Shown here piece after piece: positions 7,309-17,700 of a DNA stretch of 27,109 nucleotides. The DNA lies in IMG/VR virus record IMGVR_UViG_3300017727_000123, positions 1 through 27,109 of that record, one strand, 5' to 3'. The translations under genes were made by a program, and so were the position numbers. Under the pieces are notes generated by a model. It was not told the DNA's origin and did no database searches. It was given only the letters and a program-made list of their open reading frames with translations. The stretch is from a virus. The stretch's first letter is position 1. The number at the start of each line of letters is the position of its first letter.

Positions 7309-7725
7309 ATGAAAATCGCACTTGCCACTCTGATGTTACTCTCTGCTCTGCCTGCTAATGCAGGTAACATTGGGGAACATAGTAATCGTAGAGCATATCA
7401 ATCTCAAAGAGGATATGCTTCGGAAAACAAATGCTATCGTAAAGAATATCGCGAAGAGTATATCCCTGGCACATCTAACTCTCCTGGATATGTTTCATCA
7501 TATAGAGAGCGAGTAGAAGTTCCTTGTAACTATACTCATTCGCGACGACGAACCTATAACAAACCTAATGTTGATGACAACTCTTGCATCGAAGGTTCGA
7601 TCTTAGGTGGCATTGCTGGAGGTGGTGCAGGTGCTGCATTATCACGAGGTGATGGTCGTTTCTGGGCAATCCCTCTCGGCATTGTCGGTGGTGCGATGGC
7701 AGGATGCCAAATTGATGGAGGTTAA
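7309..7725 (+). CDS. Secreted glycine-zipper protein
   Basis: A 138-residue protein with a signal peptide (MKIALATLMLLSALPANAG, cleavage around ANA). The middle part is Arg/Tyr-rich with two Cys. The C-terminal glycine zipper (SILGGIAGGGAGAAL, then GIVGGAMAGC) resembles two-helix Gly-zipper domains of outer-membrane or periplasmic proteins. It probably sits in the host envelope. Its function is unknown; helping lysis or changing the cell surface are guesses. It begins 5 bases after the gp32 stop, so it is co-transcribed with gp32, and an intrinsic terminator follows it. Confidence 0.65.
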   Translation: MKIALATLMLLSALPANAGNIGEHSNRRAYQSQRGYASENKCYRKEYREEYIPGTSNSPGYVSSYRERVEVPCNYTHSRRRTYNKPNVDDNSCIEGSILGGIAGGGAGAALSRGDGRFWAIPLGIVGGAMAGCQIDGG

Positions 7726-7755
7726 AACGAAATCCATCTTTTAATTCCCTGAAAC

Positions 7756-7781
7756 GGCGGAAAAAATCTCCGCCAATTTTT
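7756..7781 (+). terminator. Rho-independent terminator at the convergent junction
   Basis: GGCGGA (7756-7761) pairs with TCCGCC (7769-7774) around a 7-base loop, followed by AATTTTT. It ends the plus-strand run of phoH to gp32 before the minus-strand baseplate genes. The reverse strand lacks a T-run after the stem, so it probably acts one way only. Confidence 0.75.
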
Positions 7782-7787
7782 AAGTCT

Positions 7788-7976
7788 CTAGGGTTTTCTG
7801 AATTGTTGCTCTAAGAGAATCCTAAGTAGATTCTCTTTTAGTGATATTAATGCTTGTTGCTCGAAGGAATCACCACCAGGCCATTTATCTAAATGAACAC
7901 AGACGGATTTGTACATTAGTACGAGTCCGTCTTTTGATATGTCTATGTTTATATAATCCTCAGAATTAGTATCCAC
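7788..7976 (-). CDS. Small overlapping hypothetical protein downstream of gp53
   Basis: A 62-residue protein read from GTG at 7976 (minus strand), overlapping the end of gp53 by 11 bases in another frame. The sequence is protein-like: DYINIDISKDGLVLMYKSV, then HLDKWPGGD, and a helical C-terminus. The long frame running further upstream is only the shadow of the gp53 Ser-Pro repeat (Leu/Gln/His-rich) and is not coding. There is no clear Shine-Dalgarno sequence, so coupling to gp53 translation is likely. I associate the KWPGGD pattern with small cyanophage proteins near gp53; function unknown. Confidence 0.6.
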   Translation of the reverse strand: MDTNSEDYINIDISKDGLVLMYKSVCVHLDKWPGGDSFEQQALISLKENLLRILLEQQFRKP

Positions 7977-8940
7977 CGTAAGGAGAAGGTGAAGGACTAG
8001 GAGATGGAGATGGACTTGGAGATGGACTTGGCGAAGGTGATGGTGAGGGTGATGGACTTGGAGAAGGACTGGGACTTGGAGAAGGACTCGGAGAGGGACT
8101 AGGACTCGGAGAAGAGGCGCTAGTTGCAGCAGTTGTGCTTGTAGTAGAACTAACGGCACTACCGCCGCTTCCTGACACCCCTGCACTGCTTGAAGTGCCA
8201 GAACTGGTAGGACCATAATCAAACGATTCTGACGATACTCCATTAGCAGTAATTGCTGTTACTGAAACACTACCCTGAGCACTTGCAATATTATCCAAGA
8301 ACTTAGCAGCAATATTAAGAGGAGTCTTTTTATTACCTCTTCTATCAATTTCTACATGAGGCAAGTATCGAACCAAAGTCTCAAACTCTTCAATAATCTT
8401 GTCCAACATTGTAGAAGTTGGGATCAAAATTTGACGTTTCTTTTCATTTTCAAATTGCTCATGCTCATAATTTGTAATAGGAACTCTTGAGTCCTCAGGA
8501 CTAAGAACACTATCATCAGGCATTGTTGTTCTATAGTCTATATTAACTTCAATGCCTTCTGGTACATAGACAAGTCCATTATAAAAAACTTCTTGAGTTT
8601 CGTAATGGTGAATGGCGTCTGTATCACCATATTTCTCTAGTATAAATTCAAAGAGATCTGCTTCTCTTCTGGGCCAATCATCATATGGATCAATAACATT
8701 ATTGATTAACAGAACAATCCAATCTAAGAATGGATCGCCAAAAAACTTACTAGCAATAAACTCTGGAGACTCACCATCTTTGACCGAGTATGCTTCAAAT
8801 AATGTACTATATTGTGCTAAGTCTTCTCTAGACTTGACACGTCTAAAGATGTTTTTTACCAAACGATACTCAAATGGTTCATCGGTGGATACACCTTCAC
8901 CAACGTAAACATTTGGAAAATAAGAAAAATATCCTGCCAT
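7966..8940 (-). CDS. 53: Baseplate wedge subunit gp53 with a Ser-Pro repeat tail
   Basis: A 324-residue protein. Residues 1-200 fit gp53 of T4-like phages: SYFPNV near the start, SPEFIASKFFGDPFLDWIVLL (gp53 and LysM-like core), VIDPYDDWP, and the later ENEKKRQILI segment seen in T4 as ENEKLRQIKI. T4 gp53 is 196 residues. This one adds a Ser/Thr/Gly-rich linker and 22 consecutive Ser-Pro dipeptides, ending YGGY. gp53 joins the wedges around the hub in the baseplate. The repeat is probably a stiff extended spike on the virion surface (inference). The ATG at 8940 sits directly at the end of gp48. Confidence 0.85.
   Translation of the reverse strand: MAGYFSYFPNVYVGEGVSTDEPFEYRLVKNIFRRVKSREDLAQYSTLFEAYSVKDGESPEFIASKFFGDPFLDWIVLLINNVIDPYDDWPRREADLFEFILEKYGDTDAIHHYETQEVFYNGLVYVPEGIEVNIDYRTTMPDDSVLSPEDSRVPITNYEHEQFENEKKRQILIPTSTMLDKIIEEFETLVRYLPHVEIDRRGNKKTPLNIAAKFLDNIASAQGSVSVTAITANGVSSESFDYGPTSSGTSSSAGVSGSGGSAVSSTTSTTAATSASSPSPSPSPSPSPSPSPSPSPSPSPSPSPSPSPSPSPSPSPSPSPYGGY
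7981..8112 (-). repeat. (Ser-Pro)22 hexanucleotide-coded repeat in gp53
   Basis: Twenty-two tandem Ser-Pro codon pairs. The codons vary (CCT, CCA, CCC and CCG for Pro; TCT, AGT, TCA and TCG for Ser), so the repeat is kept at the protein level rather than as a simple recent DNA expansion. Short higher-order units recur. Confidence 0.9.
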
Positions 8941-9950: not shown

Positions 9951-10367
9951 AGATATCAAGGCAAGTACCGAGTATCATTTCCTAGGAAGTACAAAGGTGA
10001 CCCAAGAAACGTTGTTTATAGGTCATCTTGGGAATATAAATTCATGAAATGGTGTGATATTACTAGTTCTGTTGAAGAATGGGGTAGTGAGGAAATTATT
10101 GTTCCTTACACATCTCCAGTTGATGGAAGAAGACATCGTTACTTTCCTGACTTCTATGTCAAAATTGGCAGTAAGAAGTATTTGGTAGAGGTAAAACCAT
10201 ATAAACAAACTAAGGAACCCAAGACTCAAAAAAGAAATACAAAACGATATATTAATGAAGTTGTGACATATGCTGTGAACCAAGCAAAGTGGAAAGCAGC
10301 AACTGAATTTTGTATGGATCAAGGTTGGGAGTTTATGCTAATCACAGAAAAGGAACTTAAGATCTAA
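9948..10367 (+). CDS. 4: Head completion nuclease gp4
   Basis: A 139-residue protein with the gp4 pattern: MRYQGKYRVSFPRKYKGD, then VYRSSWEYKFMKWCD, and the nuclease-like core YFPDFYV followed by YLVEVKP (Asp, then Glu-x-Lys of the PD-(D/E)XK fold). In T4, gp4 (also called 50/65) finishes DNA-filled heads before tail joining. A C-terminal segment, NQAKWKAATEFC, matches the family's closing helix. It starts at ATG 9948 in the divergent gap and ends one base into the next gene (TAATGG). Confidence 0.82.
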   Translation: MRYQGKYRVSFPRKYKGDPRNVVYRSSWEYKFMKWCDITSSVEEWGSEEIIVPYTSPVDGRRHRYFPDFYVKIGSKKYLVEVKPYKQTKEPKTQKRNTKRYINEVVTYAVNQAKWKAATEFCMDQGWEFMLITEKELKI

Positions 10368-11155
10368 TGGGTATTCCACATCCACAGGCAGCCGCTTATA
10401 ATTCACTTCAAAGATTCATTTCTGTTTTCAAGAATGATAATACATTTGTTGCGACTACCAACTTATATTCGATCCACTTTTCTCCCCCAAGAATTCTATT
10501 GCCATCTACTCAGTTTGGTGGTGGTACACAAGGTAATACGTTCAACCCAAACTCAGGGGAACTTAGAGACCTTTTAGATTATTATGCAAAGAGTGTCAAT
10601 CTTCCCAGTAAACAGATAACAACGGGACAAGTGACAGATGTTGGTTCTCCTATGAAGTATGCAACAAATGCTGCTTTTAGTCAAATCAATATGACTTTCC
10701 AAGTTCCTAGATCTCAATATACTAGGAATTTCTTTGAACGCTGGATGTCAAAGATGTCAAACGATGCTAATCAATATACTGACTATTATAATGACTACTG
10801 CTGTCCCAAGTTGATGATTTATAAATGGGAACGTGGTGGTGGAGAACGAGCAGCATTAGATCCAGACACCGCAAGAGCACGACGAGATGGAAAGAATTCT
10901 ATATTTGCCAGAAAAAATAAATTGACCGCAGCATGGGAGATTAGAAATGTATTCCCATATAATATCGGATCAATTCAACTCAGCAGTGATGAAGCAAGAG
11001 TGATGGAGTTAACTGTTGGATTCTATTACGAGAGATATAGATTCTTTACCGAAGATGCTTATGATGATCCTGGTGTCAATCAAGACATCACAGTATCCTC
11101 TGCTGGTCTCGATAATAATACTGATCCATCAACGGATAGAAATATAACTGTCTAA
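10367..11155 (+). CDS. 54: Baseplate tail tube initiator, gp54-like
   Basis: A 262-residue strand-rich protein. It has YSIHFSPP near the start, KSVNLPSKQITTG, a FQVPRSQYTRNFFERWM segment and a late YPYNIGSIQLSS-like strand (here FPYNIGSIQLSS), followed by LTVGFYYERYRF. This matches the tail-tube fold shared by gp19, gp48 and gp54. Its place next to gp4 and the hub genes favours gp54, which starts tube polymerisation on gp48. It is somewhat shorter than T4 gp54 (320 residues), so the exact assignment is less sure than the fold. Confidence 0.68.
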   Translation: MGIPHPQAAAYNSLQRFISVFKNDNTFVATTNLYSIHFSPPRILLPSTQFGGGTQGNTFNPNSGELRDLLDYYAKSVNLPSKQITTGQVTDVGSPMKYATNAAFSQINMTFQVPRSQYTRNFFERWMSKMSNDANQYTDYYNDYCCPKLMIYKWERGGGERAALDPDTARARRDGKNSIFARKNKLTAAWEIRNVFPYNIGSIQLSSDEARVMELTVGFYYERYRFFTEDAYDDPGVNQDITVSSAGLDNNTDPSTDRNITV

Positions 11156-11191: not shown

Positions 11192-11905
11192 ATGGCATTA
11201 CCTAAATTAAACGCCCCCAAATATAAATTGAAATTGCCTTCTGATGGCAGAACAGTCAATTTCAGACCATTTCTCGTTAAAGAAGAAAAACTTCTACTAA
11301 TTGCTACTGAAACTGGGGAACAATCGGATATCATTGAAGCAATCAAAAATATTATTGTTGCTTGTACCGATTTGAAAGATGTTGATAAATTAGCAACATT
11401 TGATATTGAATTTTTGTTTTTGCAGATTCGCACAAAGTCTGTAGGTGAGAATGTTGAAGTGGTAGTGACTTGTAATGATGATAATGAAACTGAGGTTCCT
11501 GTTGCTATTCCTCTTGACGAAATTAAAGTAATCAAGAATAAGGAACATAAGAAGGAACTGAAACTTTCTGAAGAGATTATGATCACGATGGGATATCCGA
11601 GTCTGGATATGTTTGTCAAAATGAATTTTGCTGAGGAAAATGTTAATCAGGTAGATCAAATCTTTGAGATGGCAACTAGTTGTATCCAAACAATTGCAGA
11701 TCCTAATCAGATTTATGATTGTGCAGATGTTCCTAAGGAAGAACTGAGTGACTTTTTTGATCAATTGAATAGCAAGCAGTTTCAAATGATCCAAGGTTTC
11801 TTTGAAACCATGCCTAAGTTATCTCATACAGTTGAGGTAACAAATCCAAACACAAAGAAAAAGACTAAGGTTGTACTTGAGGGATTGGCGAGTTTTTTCG
11901 CATAG
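11192..11905 (+). CDS. 26: Baseplate hub assembly protein, gp26/gp51 family
   Basis: A 237-residue protein of the T4 gp26/gp51 baseplate family: LPKLNAPKYKLKLPSDG, FRPFLVKEEKLLL, later MITMGYPS and a closing LEGLASFFA. Members help build the central hub. The gene stops at TAG 11903-11905, just after a T TTT TTC heptamer (11893-11899). A -1 slip there would replace the last residue with a 64-residue extension, giving about 300 residues. Its position directly before the tape-measure-like gene is that of the lambda G and G-T tail assembly chaperones. The family call is firm; the frameshift is inferred. Confidence 0.8.
   Translation: MALPKLNAPKYKLKLPSDGRTVNFRPFLVKEEKLLLIATETGEQSDIIEAIKNIIVACTDLKDVDKLATFDIEFLFLQIRTKSVGENVEVVVTCNDDNETEVPVAIPLDEIKVIKNKEHKKELKLSEEIMITMGYPSLDMFVKMNFAEENVNQVDQIFEMATSCIQTIADPNQIYDCADVPKEELSDFFDQLNSKQFQMIQGFFETMPKLSHTVEVTNPNTKKKTKVVLEGLASFFA
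11893..11899 (+). promoter_or_regulatory. Candidate -1 ribosomal frameshift site T TTT TTC
   Basis: Six T's and a C are in the exact phase needed: the zero frame reads AGT TTT TTC GCA TAG. Slipping back one base keeps Phe in both sites (TTT TTT) and continues with CGC. The zero-frame stop is only 4 bases beyond. A possible stimulator is the stem CTTCGT (11923-11928) with ACGAGG (11936-11941), but at 23 bases from the slip site it is further away than usual. Confidence 0.65.
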
Positions 11906-12093
11906 CACTCCTTCATAATAATCTTCGTGCTTACTACGAGGGCAACTTTGCTCTTATGCATCATCATAAATGGAATATTGAACATATTGACAATCTCATG
12001 CCTTGGGAGAAAGAAATTTACGTCAATATGCTAATCCATTTCTTGAAAGAAGAGGAAAAACGAATGAAGGAGCAGCAATCAGCAGGTGGCTAA
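11899..12093 (+). CDS. Minus-one frame extension of the gp26-like protein (tail-chaperone-like)
   Basis: In the -1 frame 64 codons run from CGC 11899 to TAA 12091-12093. The product is clearly protein-like: LRAYYEGNFALMHHHKW, then DNLMPWEKEIYVNML, and a charged helix FLKEEEKRMKEQQ. The only ATG that leaves much of it (11956) lies in the middle of the best-looking part and has no Shine-Dalgarno sequence. The in-frame codons before it include only ATT or ATA as weak starts. The frame first opens at 11881, just before the slippery site. I therefore read it as the C-terminal part of a frameshift product. The alternative is a separate small gene with a rare start codon. Confidence 0.65.
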   Translation, partial: RIALLHNNLRAYYEGNFALMHHHKWNIEHIDNLMPWEKEIYVNMLIHFLKEEEKRMKEQQSAGG

Positions 12094-14623
12094 ATTACAA
12101 ACCTATAAGTTCGTAAATCCTGGAGTCGCGGGGTCAAAGTCTCCAGCAGTTGGTGCTGTCAGAAAACAAACATTAGCAATTAATCGCTTAGGGCAATCGG
12201 TTAGTAGTGTTCAGAAAACAATTGTTAATTTAGGTGCAATTGCTGCTGCTAGTCAAAAATTAGAAGACGCTGAAGCAATAGCAGCACGTAAACAGAAACG
12301 TAGAGAAGCAGATGCTGCTGCCGAGGAAGCAGCAGAAACAGGTAAGTTAGAAAATAAACAGAAAAAGAAGCAAAAACCAGATTCAAAGTTAAAGAAGAAA
12401 GGTAAACTTGGATTTGGCAATCTATTATCAAGTTTTCTTGGTCCTATTGGCGGATTACTTCTAAAGATTGCTTCATTAGCACTTATTACTGAGACATTGA
12501 AATGGATTGGAGATCCTGAGAATAAAGAAAAACTAGTTACATTCCTTGAGAAGACAAAGTTTGTCTTTGAAAAGTTATTTGGATATGCATCACTATTAGT
12601 TGGAACGTTCTTAGACGGATTCTCAGCATTAATGGATCCTAATGGGGACTTCATTAGTAAGATTACAGGTCTTGGTAAACTCTTAGTAGGTATCATTGGA
12701 TTAAGATATCTGATGAATCCGTTTGCATTGATTGGGGATATCCTCGGTCTAATGGACATGATGGATAGTGGGGATGATGTTATACCTGATGAAGACCCAA
12801 GAATAAAACCCAAGCAACCTAAACCACCCAGTGATCTTAAACTTAAGAAGATGGGTCTTAACCCTGATCAAATTAAGGAGTATAAAAGATTAAGAGCTGC
12901 TGGTCAAGGTGCAACAGAAGCTCTAGGTAACGCAAGAAACTTCAAACCAAAGAAAGGTTTATTTGGAAGGTTAGCAGATAGTGCAAGATCTACCTTTGAT
13001 TCTGGTGTTGATTTTACGCGAACTCAGGGAACTAGATTAAAAGATTTTCTCATAGCTCAAGGAAAACAAAAATATAAGCAACTTAGTGAAGCTGCTGTCA
13101 ATGCTTATGCGAACCTAAGTGAGAAAGCTCGTAAAAGATGGGAGCAAATGGTTGACTTCACCAAGATGGCGAAAAGGAAGGGTGGTCAATTTGCAAGTGG
13201 ATTAAAAGATAAAGCATCAAAAGCAGGTGATTGGGTTGGCGGAAAATTAAGTAAAGCAGGTAATGCACTTAAAGATCTTGCAATCAGTAAAGTTATTTCA
13301 CCTGTTAGAAAATTTATCGACCCTATAATGACTACTGTCAAGGGGATTGGCGATAAAGTTGTACAAACAATCCTTAAGAGTCCTGCTGGTGCAGCAGTAG
13401 AAACTGCGCTGCAGAAAAAAGGTCTTTCTATCACAAAACCTGGTCCTCTTACAAAGTACATTGGTGGTAAAGCATTGCCTGTTATTGGTGGTCTTCTGAA
13501 TGCAATATTTGCATACGACAGATTCCAAAGTGGAGATGTAATAGGCGGCATGATCGAAGCACTATCTGGTGCATTTGATATTTCTGGTCTGTTTGGTTTT
13601 GCTCCTGGTCCTGGAATCTCGCTGGGCATTGATGCTTACATGTTTGCTCGTGACTTAGTTCCTGGTATTCAGGAAATGGAAACTGGTATTGTAGATGCAA
13701 TTCCAGGAATGAAGCAACTCCGACCAAAAATTGAAGGATTTGCTAAAGGTTTACCTCCACTTGGAAGTCTATTTAATATTTTTGGAGGTGAAGGAGACCT
13801 TGACAAACAACCAGTAAGTGATTATGATGGCACTGCAGAGGGTGATAGAGATGGTAATGATGAAATGCCTGGTCAAGAGATTGAAAGTAACCAGGAGATG
13901 TTCTTAGGTGGTGTTGTTAAAGGTATTACTAAGGCAGTTAGTGGTGTAGGTAATGCAGTTAGTGGTGCATTAAACTCACCTATAGGTCAGATTGCACAAA
14001 GCGTTGCATCGTTTATTCCTGGTGCTGCACCTATCATGGCAGGTATCAATACACTTGCTTCGGGTAATCCTATGTCAATGTTAGGAATGATTCCTGGTGT
14101 AGGTGGAATGATGAGTCAAGTTGGCAACTTTATGAATAGTCCTATAGGTCAAATTGGCAGTTCATTACTAAGTGGCAACTTTGGTGCTGCTGCTAATTCT
14201 GCAGTTGGTATGATCCCTGGTGCATCTAATCTTGGTGGAGCAATTTCTGGATTCCTTAGTAGTAGTTCAATAAATCCTGTTGCTGGTATTAGTTCTCTTG
14301 CTGATAATTTTGGTATAGGTAATCTCATGAAGAGTGTTACAGGAGCAGTTGCTAGTCCTGAGTCTGGAATGTCACAGATTGCTAGTGAACTTGGAGTAAA
14401 TCCTGCATCTCTTGGAGTAACTCCAAAATCATCTCAATCATCAAAGGTATTAGGTCAAGATGGAATGTCTGCACAGATGATGATGCAAGAAACAATGGAA
14501 TTTATTCCAATTCCTGTTATCATTGAAAAGTTGATGCCAATACCTCAGGCAGTACCTATAAATACTCCAGTGGCATCACCTACAGTTACTGCTGCGCCAG
14601 GACTCAGCTCTAGAATGAACTAA
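12086..14623 (+). CDS. Tape-measure-like tail/hub protein A
   Basis: An 845-residue protein from GTG 12086, overlapping the upstream frame by 8 bases. It starts MAKLQTYKFVNPG, then a coiled-coil-like stretch and a Lys/Glu/Ala-rich charged linker (about residues 55-105). Hydrophobic helices follow (110-225), with LKWIGDP and GLRYLMNPF motifs shared with the next gene. A basic helical region (250-430) and a Gly/Ala/Ile/Pro-rich C-terminal half complete it; SPIGQI occurs twice and IPG motifs recur. Length, hydrophobic segments and place after a tail-chaperone-like gene suggest a tape-measure or hub role (gp29 position in T4). No sequence match to gp29 could be shown by eye. Confidence 0.6.
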   Translation: MAKLQTYKFVNPGVAGSKSPAVGAVRKQTLAINRLGQSVSSVQKTIVNLGAIAAASQKLEDAEAIAARKQKRREADAAAEEAAETGKLENKQKKKQKPDSKLKKKGKLGFGNLLSSFLGPIGGLLLKIASLALITETLKWIGDPENKEKLVTFLEKTKFVFEKLFGYASLLVGTFLDGFSALMDPNGDFISKITGLGKLLVGIIGLRYLMNPFALIGDILGLMDMMDSGDDVIPDEDPRIKPKQPKPPSDLKLKKMGLNPDQIKEYKRLRAAGQGATEALGNARNFKPKKGLFGRLADSARSTFDSGVDFTRTQGTRLKDFLIAQGKQKYKQLSEAAVNAYANLSEKARKRWEQMVDFTKMAKRKGGQFASGLKDKASKAGDWVGGKLSKAGNALKDLAISKVISPVRKFIDPIMTTVKGIGDKVVQTILKSPAGAAVETALQKKGLSITKPGPLTKYIGGKALPVIGGLLNAIFAYDRFQSGDVIGGMIEALSGAFDISGLFGFAPGPGISLGIDAYMFARDLVPGIQEMETGIVDAIPGMKQLRPKIEGFAKGLPPLGSLFNIFGGEGDLDKQPVSDYDGTAEGDRDGNDEMPGQEIESNQEMFLGGVVKGITKAVSGVGNAVSGALNSPIGQIAQSVASFIPGAAPIMAGINTLASGNPMSMLGMIPGVGGMMSQVGNFMNSPIGQIGSSLLSGNFGAAANSAVGMIPGASNLGGAISGFLSSSSINPVAGISSLADNFGIGNLMKSVTGAVASPESGMSQIASELGVNPASLGVTPKSSQSSKVLGQDGMSAQMMMQETMEFIPIPVIIEKLMPIPQAVPINTPVASPTVTAAPGLSSRMN
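13970..14275 (+). repeat. Diverged internal repeats in tail protein A
   Basis: Within about 100 codons the product repeats N-S-P-I-G-Q-I twice and has three IPG-x-type turns (FIPGAAP, MIPGVGG, MIPGASN), each within a hydrophobic Gly/Ala/Met-rich stretch. This looks like a duplicated glycine-zipper or membrane-active module of about 50-60 residues. Confidence 0.5.
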
Positions 14624-17600
14624 TGGCACAAGTACAAAAGTCAACAAAATTAAATTTCTACAAATTTGTAGCAATAAGAGAACCCTCTGACGCTGGTGGT
14701 CAGGCGGGTATTGAATCTAAGCAGGTTGCACTTGCTACAAATAAAAATACAGAAGCAATTAATAATATTGGTGGTGTCTTAAACGGATTTGTTAAGGCAA
14801 TTGGCAATCTTAATAAGATTGAATTTGAGAATCTAAAAGAGCAGAAGAAAAATAGAACCAAGTTCAAAGCAGAGTACAATACAAAAAAGAAAGGTAAGAA
14901 GATATTTGGTGTTTTAGGTGGCATTGCTAAGGGTGTTGGTAGTTTTTGGGATGGTATTCTTGGTCTGTTAGGTAGTCTGTTTAAATTTTTTATTATAATT
15001 CCTGCACTCAAATGGTTAGGAGATCCTAAAAATCAAAAGAAAGTTGTTGCTATCCTTGAGGGTATTGCAAAGGTTGCTAAGTTTATCTTTGACTGGGCAA
15101 AGTTTGGTGTCGTCAATACGATTGAAGGTTTATATGCACTTCTATCTGATGATACTAGTTGGTGGGATAAGTTAATAGGATTTGGAAAGGCATTTGTTGG
15201 TCTAGGTGCAATTTTCCTAGGACTTCGTTGGTTGAAGAATCCATTTAGGATTATCACTGACCTCTTCAATGTCCTGAATAGTTTTAGAAAGAATCTACTG
15301 AGGTCTAAATCTGCACTTCGCAGAAGAAGAGGTGGAGGACTTGGTAGAGGTGGTCGTGGTGGTGGACGTGGTAGAGGTCTGCTAAAGGGTGCTGCATTGC
15401 TTGGCACTGGCGTTGCAATTGGTGCTACTGCTAATGCGCTAGCGAATGGTGGTAAAGACGGACAGGATGGAAAGGATGGCGAGGATGCCAATCCTGAAGA
15501 CATGAAGTCCATGATTGACCAAAAGTTTTCAGAGTATGATGTAGAGAAGAAATCTCAAGGAGGTTCAGTAAAGAATCTCCCAAGTAGATCACAAGGAGGA
15601 TTTATTAATGGACCACAATCGGGATACAAGGTATCATTGGATGGGGGGAGATCCACCTCGTTTATCGGACATGGAAGTGAATATGTTGCTAGAAAGGCAA
15701 ATGGGGGAGCATTCGTCGTTCCTCTTAATACTCCTGGAACAAAAACGCAACCTCACCTAACTCAAAAAAGAGTTTCTGAAGCAAAAAGTCAGGGGTATAA
15801 TGTACCTGGATTTGCAAAGGGTGGTCTTGTAGGTGGCACCGCAGGTAAACCTGCTGATGCAAAGAACAGAAAGATATTTTTCCACTGGAGTGGTGGGATG
15901 CATAATTCTACTGGTGGATTACCTTATCACCAGGCATTCAGTGGTGCTGGTAAACCAGGAAATAAAAATGTAAACTATGGAGTAGATAAGAACGAACATA
16001 CAGCAGGAGGTAACACGAATTCTGTGGGACTTGCTGCTGCTGCCATGGGTCATGCTGGCATGACAAAGAATTATTATGATGATAAGAGGGGTTGGAAAGA
16101 AAATCCATTAACAAATGCTCAGACGACTGCCATGGCAAAAGAGGCAGCAGGTCTGATGAAAGCATATGGTCAAACTTCTGCCGACGTAAAAAGAAATGTT
16201 TGGACACATGGAGAATGGGAAAGATATGCTGTAAAGACGGGCAAACTTCCATCGCCAGTGCAAAGATGGGACTTAGACTCTCTTAAACCTGGTCCTTATA
16301 ATCATCCTGGTGGATTCTGGGCAGCGAAGCAAGTTCGTTCAACTGGTGGCGATCAAATGAGGTCAAAAGTTAGATCCTTTTTGAGTGGTGCTGGTGGAGA
16401 TGAAGATACTCCTAATGCTGATGAGACTGGTAAAACTACACCGAAACCTAGAGGTTTCATGAGCAATGCGTTGGGATTAGTTGATGCTATAACTGGCGGT
16501 AGAACTGACTTTGATGGTATGTCAGGTCCTCAGCGCACTCTCACTAATCCAGATCAGAAAGGTGAAAGAGAAGCAAATAAAAGAGACGAAAAAGATAAGA
16601 AAGGAAAGGCAAAAACAACTGGTATGGTATTCCCATTGCCTAATGGTAGATTTGCTGCTGGTGCAAGACAAGTTTATGGTGCAGGTAGAAGTTATGGAGG
16701 ACACGCTGGTGTTGACTTAACAGAGTTACCACCATTTGGTGCTGATCCTAAGATTCCTGTTGTTGCTGCTATCTCTGGTACAGTTCTCAAAGAAAGATAT
16801 AAAGCGGGTCAGACATATATGTCTGGTATGATGATTCGAGGTGAGGATGGATACGACCAAAGATACTTGCATATGGAACCTAAGGTTAAACCTGGAGATA
16901 AGATCAATGCAGGTGATCAGATCGGTGTTTTGTATGATGATGCCGATAATACACATTTACACTTTGAGGTATATAAGAATGGTAAAGGTGGGCACTTAAA
17001 TCCATCTCAGATTTATCCTGATCTATTCAAACCTGGTGCTAAAGGTGGTGGAGAAATTCAAGGAAGAGTAACAGCACCAGGTGCTGTAGATCCTCCAGGT
17101 GCTGTTGGTTCTGATAGTTCATCAAATCCATCTGATGCAACAAATACTGGTGGTGCTGCTAAACCAAGTATAATGAGTGATTTGCTTCCTAAATCATCTT
17201 CTGGATTCTCTTTTGAAGAAAGATATGGTAGCACTCGTAGCACCAAAGATAACTTTGAACTTGCAACCGATAAAGAGAATAAACGTAGAGGACAAATTGC
17301 ATCAATGATGCCTAGCATGAATAATGCGTTTGGTCCTAAACCAGCAGCATCGCAGCAACAAGGTGCATCTACTAAGGAACTACAAAAGATAACTAGAGAT
17401 AGAAATACTGCAAGACAGCAAGTTCAAACAAGAACACAAGAGATGATTCAACAGGTCATGCAACAAGTGGCATCACAAAATGGTATGAATCAACAGGTTG
17501 CACAAGATGCAGCAATGAAAATCAGTCAAATAGTATCTCAAAGTACAGCACAAATGAATGCAGCAAAAAATCAAACACCCCAAGTTGTTGGTGGTGGTGG

Positions 17601-17700
17601 AGGAGGTGGTGGTCGCGGTACTGAAATGTCCGATGGCATCTTAAAAACTACTGCTGCTATGCTTAATTCCAATCTTAATCCCCTCAAAGGTCTATTCTAA
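14623..17700 (+). CDS. Tape-measure-like tail protein B with amidase-like and M23 peptidase domains
   Basis: A 1025-residue protein, paralogous in its N-terminal part to the preceding gene (LKWLGDPKN at about 130, then GLRWLKNPF before 210). A basic RG-rich segment (about 230-250) and a short collagen-like GKDGQDGKDGED follow. Residues about 418-545 look like an N-acetylmuramoyl-L-alanine amidase: FFHWSGG (His421), YHQAF, NTNSVGLA and WTHGEWE (His529). Residues about 667-800 are an M23/LytM endopeptidase with HAGVD (His694, Asp698) and HLHFE (His778, His780), the zinc ligands and active site. The C-terminus is Gln-rich and helical. It probably sits in the tail and opens peptidoglycan at infection. 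The ATG overlaps the previous stop (TAATG). Confidence 0.75.
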   Translation: MAQVQKSTKLNFYKFVAIREPSDAGGQAGIESKQVALATNKNTEAINNIGGVLNGFVKAIGNLNKIEFENLKEQKKNRTKFKAEYNTKKKGKKIFGVLGGIAKGVGSFWDGILGLLGSLFKFFIIIPALKWLGDPKNQKKVVAILEGIAKVAKFIFDWAKFGVVNTIEGLYALLSDDTSWWDKLIGFGKAFVGLGAIFLGLRWLKNPFRIITDLFNVLNSFRKNLLRSKSALRRRRGGGLGRGGRGGGRGRGLLKGAALLGTGVAIGATANALANGGKDGQDGKDGEDANPEDMKSMIDQKFSEYDVEKKSQGGSVKNLPSRSQGGFINGPQSGYKVSLDGGRSTSFIGHGSEYVARKANGGAFVVPLNTPGTKTQPHLTQKRVSEAKSQGYNVPGFAKGGLVGGTAGKPADAKNRKIFFHWSGGMHNSTGGLPYHQAFSGAGKPGNKNVNYGVDKNEHTAGGNTNSVGLAAAAMGHAGMTKNYYDDKRGWKENPLTNAQTTAMAKEAAGLMKAYGQTSADVKRNVWTHGEWERYAVKTGKLPSPVQRWDLDSLKPGPYNHPGGFWAAKQVRSTGGDQMRSKVRSFLSGAGGDEDTPNADETGKTTPKPRGFMSNALGLVDAITGGRTDFDGMSGPQRTLTNPDQKGEREANKRDEKDKKGKAKTTGMVFPLPNGRFAAGARQVYGAGRSYGGHAGVDLTELPPFGADPKIPVVAAISGTVLKERYKAGQTYMSGMMIRGEDGYDQRYLHMEPKVKPGDKINAGDQIGVLYDDADNTHLHFEVYKNGKGGHLNPSQIYPDLFKPGAKGGGEIQGRVTAPGAVDPPGAVGSDSSSNPSDATNTGGAAKPSIMSDLLPKSSSGFSFEERYGSTRSTKDNFELATDKENKRRGQIASMMPSMNNAFGPKPAASQQQGASTKELQKITRDRNTARQQVQTRTQEMIQQVMQQVASQNGMNQQVAQDAAMKISQIVSQSTAQMNAAKNQTPQVVGGGGGGGGRGTEMSDGILKTTAAMLNSNLNPLKGLF

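Follow-up and report, generated by a model that had tools for sequence, protein, structure and literature searches.

In an uncultured T4-like marine myophage, represented by an IMG/VR fragment of 27 kb (27,109 nucleotides, hereafter the window), a gp26-like gene carries, close to its 3' end, six consecutive T's on which translating ribosomes very probably shift into the −1 frame. The explanation as a whole, in which slippage, stimulatory elements and coating of the tape-measure protein by short (TAC-N) and long (TAC-NC) tail-assembly chaperones are combined, is one in which we place high confidence. The frameshift was proposed by an earlier, sequence-only reading, which was not aware of a description in T4-like cyanophages; that reading was right about the frameshift but not about its novelty, because Vladimirov, Gautam and Davidson had already reported the tail-assembly chaperone genes of T4-like phages (Virology 2022, 566:9–15, doi 10.1016/j.virol.2021.11.003), in work summarised in PMC10885494 and PMC12846349. 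These citing papers credit Vladimirov et al. with a two-gene solution in some T4-like phages (PMC10885494) and with poly-T slippery sequences in the TAC-N genes of T4-like phages (PMC12846349). The window locus, with its predicted short and long forms and its poly-T slip site, is thus a further member of the published family, at least as the family is portrayed there. Measured against those summaries of the 2022 paper, the fresh details are the candidate stimulatory elements and two relatives that appear to have switched over to other arrangements, Vibrio phage D506 and S-SCSM1.

The closest GenBank DNA relatives of the window are Synechococcus phages, for example S-CAM8, with 77% identity across the chaperone region. 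All of the genes at the locus lie on the plus strand. Directly 5' of the chaperone gene is a tail-tube-like gene (10367–11155; phrog_45 tail tube, E 1.4e-58). The gp26-like gene itself (11192–11905) has a zero-frame product of 237 aa, the predicted TAC-N, which matches phrog_150 (baseplate hub, E 1.1e-85) and, over residues 9–237, positions 2–219 of the 219 of PF12322 (T4_baseplate, E 1.8e-74), the profile terminating at the slip site. The final codons of the gene are GAG GGA TTG GCG AGT TTT TTC GCA TAG; here the Shine-Dalgarno-like GAGGGA (11879–11884), a candidate upstream stimulator, lies 8 bases 5' of the slippery heptamer T_TTT_TTC (11893–11899), and the zero-frame stop TAG (11903–11905) follows 3 bases 3' of the heptamer, with identical spacing in 225 of 265 related loci. 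The −1-frame extension (TAC-C; 11899–12090), which matches phrog_634 (‘baseplate hub assembly catalyst’, E 1.8e-30), is overlapped at its end by the GTG start of a gene for an 845-aa protein (12086–14623). This protein may be the tape measure, a candidacy resting on its position, a match to phrog_790 and the annotation of relatives, in which the large gene after the chaperone is called tape measure; a Pfam search found no enzyme domain in it. It is succeeded by a second giant protein (14623–17700), and the two have related N-terminal regions and both match phrog_790, 1200 and 2588. An M23 peptidase domain is present only in the second, and an ‘endolysin’ label on the first is therefore doubtful. 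Elsewhere in the window, a 324-aa baseplate-region protein on the minus strand (7966–8940) has a long C-terminal tail in which Ser-Pro is repeated about 20 times.

Judged only by the window's own sequence, the heptamer is no more than chance would supply. TTTTTTC is a common string in this AT-rich DNA and occurs 10 times in the window against 12.3 expected, and, given Ser-Phe-Phe and the codon use of the gp26-like gene, the heptamer would be formed with a probability of 0.64. As significance within the window was uninformative, 274 sequences were gathered from GenBank phages and IMG/VR. Both domains were placed by profile HMMs, giving 265 loci with both, which were reduced to 151 divergent clusters; distant relatives were sought with single proteins and closer alignment, and the hosts and lineages sampled included cyanobacteria, Pelagibacter, Methylophilales, Caulobacter, Sinorhizobium, Rhizobium, Aeromonas and Vibrio (KVP40). 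The heptamer and −1 frame for which the sequence-only reading proposed to test gp26-like relatives by alignment were both found: TTTTTTN is kept in slippery phase in all 265 loci and all 151 clusters, and 264 of the 265 have the extension in −1 register with gp26. The base after TTTTTT is C in 225 loci, T in 31, A in eight and G in one. In every cluster the first Phe codon is preceded by a T, whether the preceding residue is Ser, Asp, Asn, Ala or Thr (codons AGT, GAT, AAT, GCT, TCT or ACT), and that Phe codon is TTT (151 of 151, against a background of 0.73). The corresponding log10 P values against background, −31 for the invariant wobble T and −21 for TTT, treat the clusters as independent and are not true probabilities, since the clusters are related to one another. 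As judged from this comparison of loci, conservation places the heptamer beyond chance.

A second line of evidence comes from the extension, which in the window would be translated with no start codon belonging to it. Following a TAG at 11878–11880, the −1 frame stays open from 11881 to the stop at 12091–12093 and contains 64 codons after the slip (RIALLHNNL...SAGG). Its first possible start is an ATG at 11956, codon 20 of the extension, with no ATG, GTG or TTG in the −1 frame of the window 5' of that position. Among the 28 clusters close to the window, pN/pS over codons 1–19 is 0.14 when they are read in the −1 frame but 1.67 and 3.21 when they are read in the remaining ones; by this measure, the codons that lie 5' of any start in the window evolve as −1-frame protein under purifying selection. 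The heptamer in slip phase, the nearby zero-frame TAG and the 64-codon frame that lacks a good start were all described correctly by the sequence-only reading, and a programmed −1 frameshift is what the conserved slip site and the selection on startless codons together support. In 20 loci the extension frame opens exactly at the heptamer.

The relationship to T4 strengthens the chaperone interpretation. A profile of the predicted fusion matches the T4-type gp51 profile end to end, including the extension (hhalign probability 99.4, E 1.6e-21), and residues 147–246 of T4 gp51 match phrog_634, as does the extension. PF12322 spans residues 1–206 of the 208 in T4 gp26 and 1–201 of the 249 in T4 gp51, so that gp51 consists of a PF12322 domain followed by 48 residues homologous to the extension, while the C-terminus of T4 gp26, GLKEFFELL, falls where the slip site is. 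T4 gp26 is thus the counterpart of the short product, and gp51 that of the gp26-like domain with its C-terminal extension, but in T4 the two forms come from two separate, divergently placed genes, and the slippery string is absent from the junction position in both. It follows that T4 is a two-gene system, whereas most of the other T4-like lineages sampled are frameshifting. The 2022 study is said to have reached the same picture, with frameshifting conserved in several T4-like groups and T4 using genes 26 and 51. With the fusion matching gp51 throughout and the T4 gp26 C-terminus falling at the slip, the proposal that this gp26/gp51-family protein is a chaperone of the lambda G/G-T type is supported. 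The connection with hub-assembly proteins of T4 that the sequence-only reading drew is a real one. Two further observations concern these families. In one T4-type gp51 (locus L282, 1501–2246) the frame is broken within the gp26-like domain and not at the junction, probably through a sequencing error or because the gene is defective. T4 gp26 also has a weak match to the gp28 family phrog_1140 (E 9e-4; T4 gp28 is at 7349–7882 of locus L011), which hints that gp28 and the short chaperone could be distantly related; profile comparison did not confirm this.

Two elements flanking the slip site are candidate stimulators. At the fifth codon before TTT, GAG is used in 80 of the 115 clusters with Glu at this position, compared with 0.26 elsewhere in the gene (P 2e-22 if the clusters were independent), and this codon builds GAGGG at −14 to −10. 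A match of at least 4 bases to the anti-Shine-Dalgarno complement is found upstream of the slip in 139 of 151 clusters, as against about 20% of control windows. On the other side, 60-base windows that begin with the slip site are more stably folded than shuffled sequences, with a mean z of −1.21 (s.e. 0.20, 60 clusters), compared with about −0.2 for most flanking windows of the same family-wide scan, and several relatives, L220 and L194 among them, have a hairpin of 11–12 pairs beginning about 5 bases after the heptamer. The corresponding region directly 3' of the slip site in the window (11900–11960) shows this signal weakly, its own RNA folding no better than shuffles (z −0.42), and downstream structure is therefore claimed for the family only. 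An upstream Shine-Dalgarno sequence and a downstream stem are the stimulators of the dnaX frameshift (PMC5009743), and we infer that GAGGG and the downstream stem act likewise at the T4-like chaperone locus.

The extension could alternatively be an independent small gene, the ‘gp51’ of current annotation, expressed either by termination-reinitiation or from an ATG inside the frame. All annotated relatives inspected give it a separate CDS, whose start is placed, for example, at codon 20 of the extension in WH25-B and at codon 34 in P-SSM7, and in KVP40, nt-1 and Cr30 an ATG overlaps the stop. In Vibrio phage D506 (locus L098, 3190–3400), which is without the heptamer, the extension starts at a TAATG overlap of the short and long parts, which suggests translational coupling in place of frameshifting. 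Relatives whose second frame has a normal ATG with a Shine-Dalgarno sequence, or that lack the heptamer with both frames kept apart, were what the sequence-only reading would have counted against itself. D506 lacks the heptamer, and an ATG is present within the first 15 extension codons of 54 of the 151 clusters, but the heptamer is invariant in the 265 loci and 161 of them have no ATG, GTG or TTG from the opening of the extension frame through 12 codons past the slip. In 47 of the 54 clusters the ATG is among the first five codons, often overlapping the zero-frame stop, so re-initiation may add a free extension there. S-SCSM1 (locus L100, 2480–2520) is the only relative that keeps the heptamer with the extension out of the −1 frame, after an apparent 11-base insertion and with its own ATG nearby; this phage may have escaped frameshifting, or its sequence may contain an error. 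As an explanation of the locus, an independent gene is nonetheless improbable: it would have no need of an invariant heptamer, it leaves unaccounted for the constraint on codons 1–19, which precede the first start in the window, and in T4 gp51 the extension and a gp26-like domain form a single protein. Pelagibacter phage Mosig, which lacks a zero-frame stop until at least 24 bases past the slip, is for that reason also a poor fit to simple stop-and-restart.

Two other explanations bear on the T run itself. The long form might arise by slippage of RNA polymerase, given that the conserved element is a homopolymer and that seven T's are present in 31 loci; yet most loci have only six (the 225 with TTTTTTC), while transcriptional slippage in bacteria has been described on runs of about nine (PMC5009743), and the strict codon phase, the Shine-Dalgarno-like element and the downstream folding signal would be left unexplained, which makes this a very remote prospect. 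That the run is a mere by-product of conserved Phe-Phe would suit the high probability of the heptamer from Ser-Phe-Phe and codon use in the window, but such an origin predicts neither the unvarying T at the end of the preceding codon nor the exclusive use of TTT for the first Phe, and in nine loci the second slippery codon encodes Leu (TTA or TTG) with the slippery string intact; we give it almost no chance of being correct.

Our working model for the frameshifting locus is as follows. Translation of the gp26-like gene would yield the short chaperone, and a minority of ribosomes, pausing through the upstream GAGGG and RNA structure just 3', would slip by −1 at T_TTT_TTC, bypass the TAG and read 64 more codons to give a long form of about 300 aa. 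If lambda gpG/gpGT is a guide, the tape-measure protein encoded next would be coated by numerous short subunits and a few long ones, with the extension recruiting tail-tube subunits; both the excess of the short form and tape-measure binding are carried over from lambda. The lambda slip string is G_GGA_AAG, whereas that of the window phage is of the U_UUU_UUC type, and the T4-like short form, at 237 aa, is larger; the likeness is drawn from gene organisation. It comprises a short form with a predicted −1 frameshift fusion, a location between tail tube and tape measure, represented in the window by a tail-tube-like gene and a tape-measure candidate, and a slip close to the 3' end that would be infrequent, as it is in lambda (PMC5009743). 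Indeed, short and −1-frameshifted long forms of the tail-assembly chaperone are general in long-tailed phages (PMC5009743). Escherichia coli dnaX resembles the T4-like locus in its slippery heptamer, upstream Shine-Dalgarno stimulator and downstream stem-loop (PMC5009743), but there the slip yields a shorter product, at about 50%, whereas here it yields a longer and presumably minor one. AlphaFold gave confident models of the short form and, in place of the fusion, of a natural T4-type gp51 (pLDDT 89.4 and 86.6, respectively), and the gp51 extension is helical in its model. A search of the PDB found no sequence relative of the fusion; the structure matches include the HK97 tail-assembly chaperone 2ob9, weakly (E 1.8, probability 0.57, rmsd 3.7 over 62 columns).

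We regard the chances as evenly balanced that a three-part cassette, consisting of the upstream Shine-Dalgarno-like GAGGG, U_UUU_UUN and a downstream stem, is conserved in most non-T4 lineages, and that T4 (with its genes 26 and 51), D506 (with its TAATG overlap) and S-SCSM1 (whose extension is re-framed) each escaped from it independently. If this is so, the ratio of short to long form could be compared among recoded, re-initiated and two-gene systems. For annotation, the frameshift would mean that ‘baseplate hub subunit gp26’ and ‘hub assembly catalyst gp51’ are one recoded chaperone gene in hundreds of cyanophage and pelagiphage genomes. Among the GenBank records inspected there is no joined CDS, and in relatives L001, L002, L003, L094 and L099 the extension is a separate ‘gp51’ or hypothetical CDS whose internal start varies; with a single recoded gene, current annotations with such arbitrary starts are very probably wrong. 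T4 gp26 and gp51 themselves have long been known only as hub-assembly factors, and their likely role is chaperoning of the tape measure.
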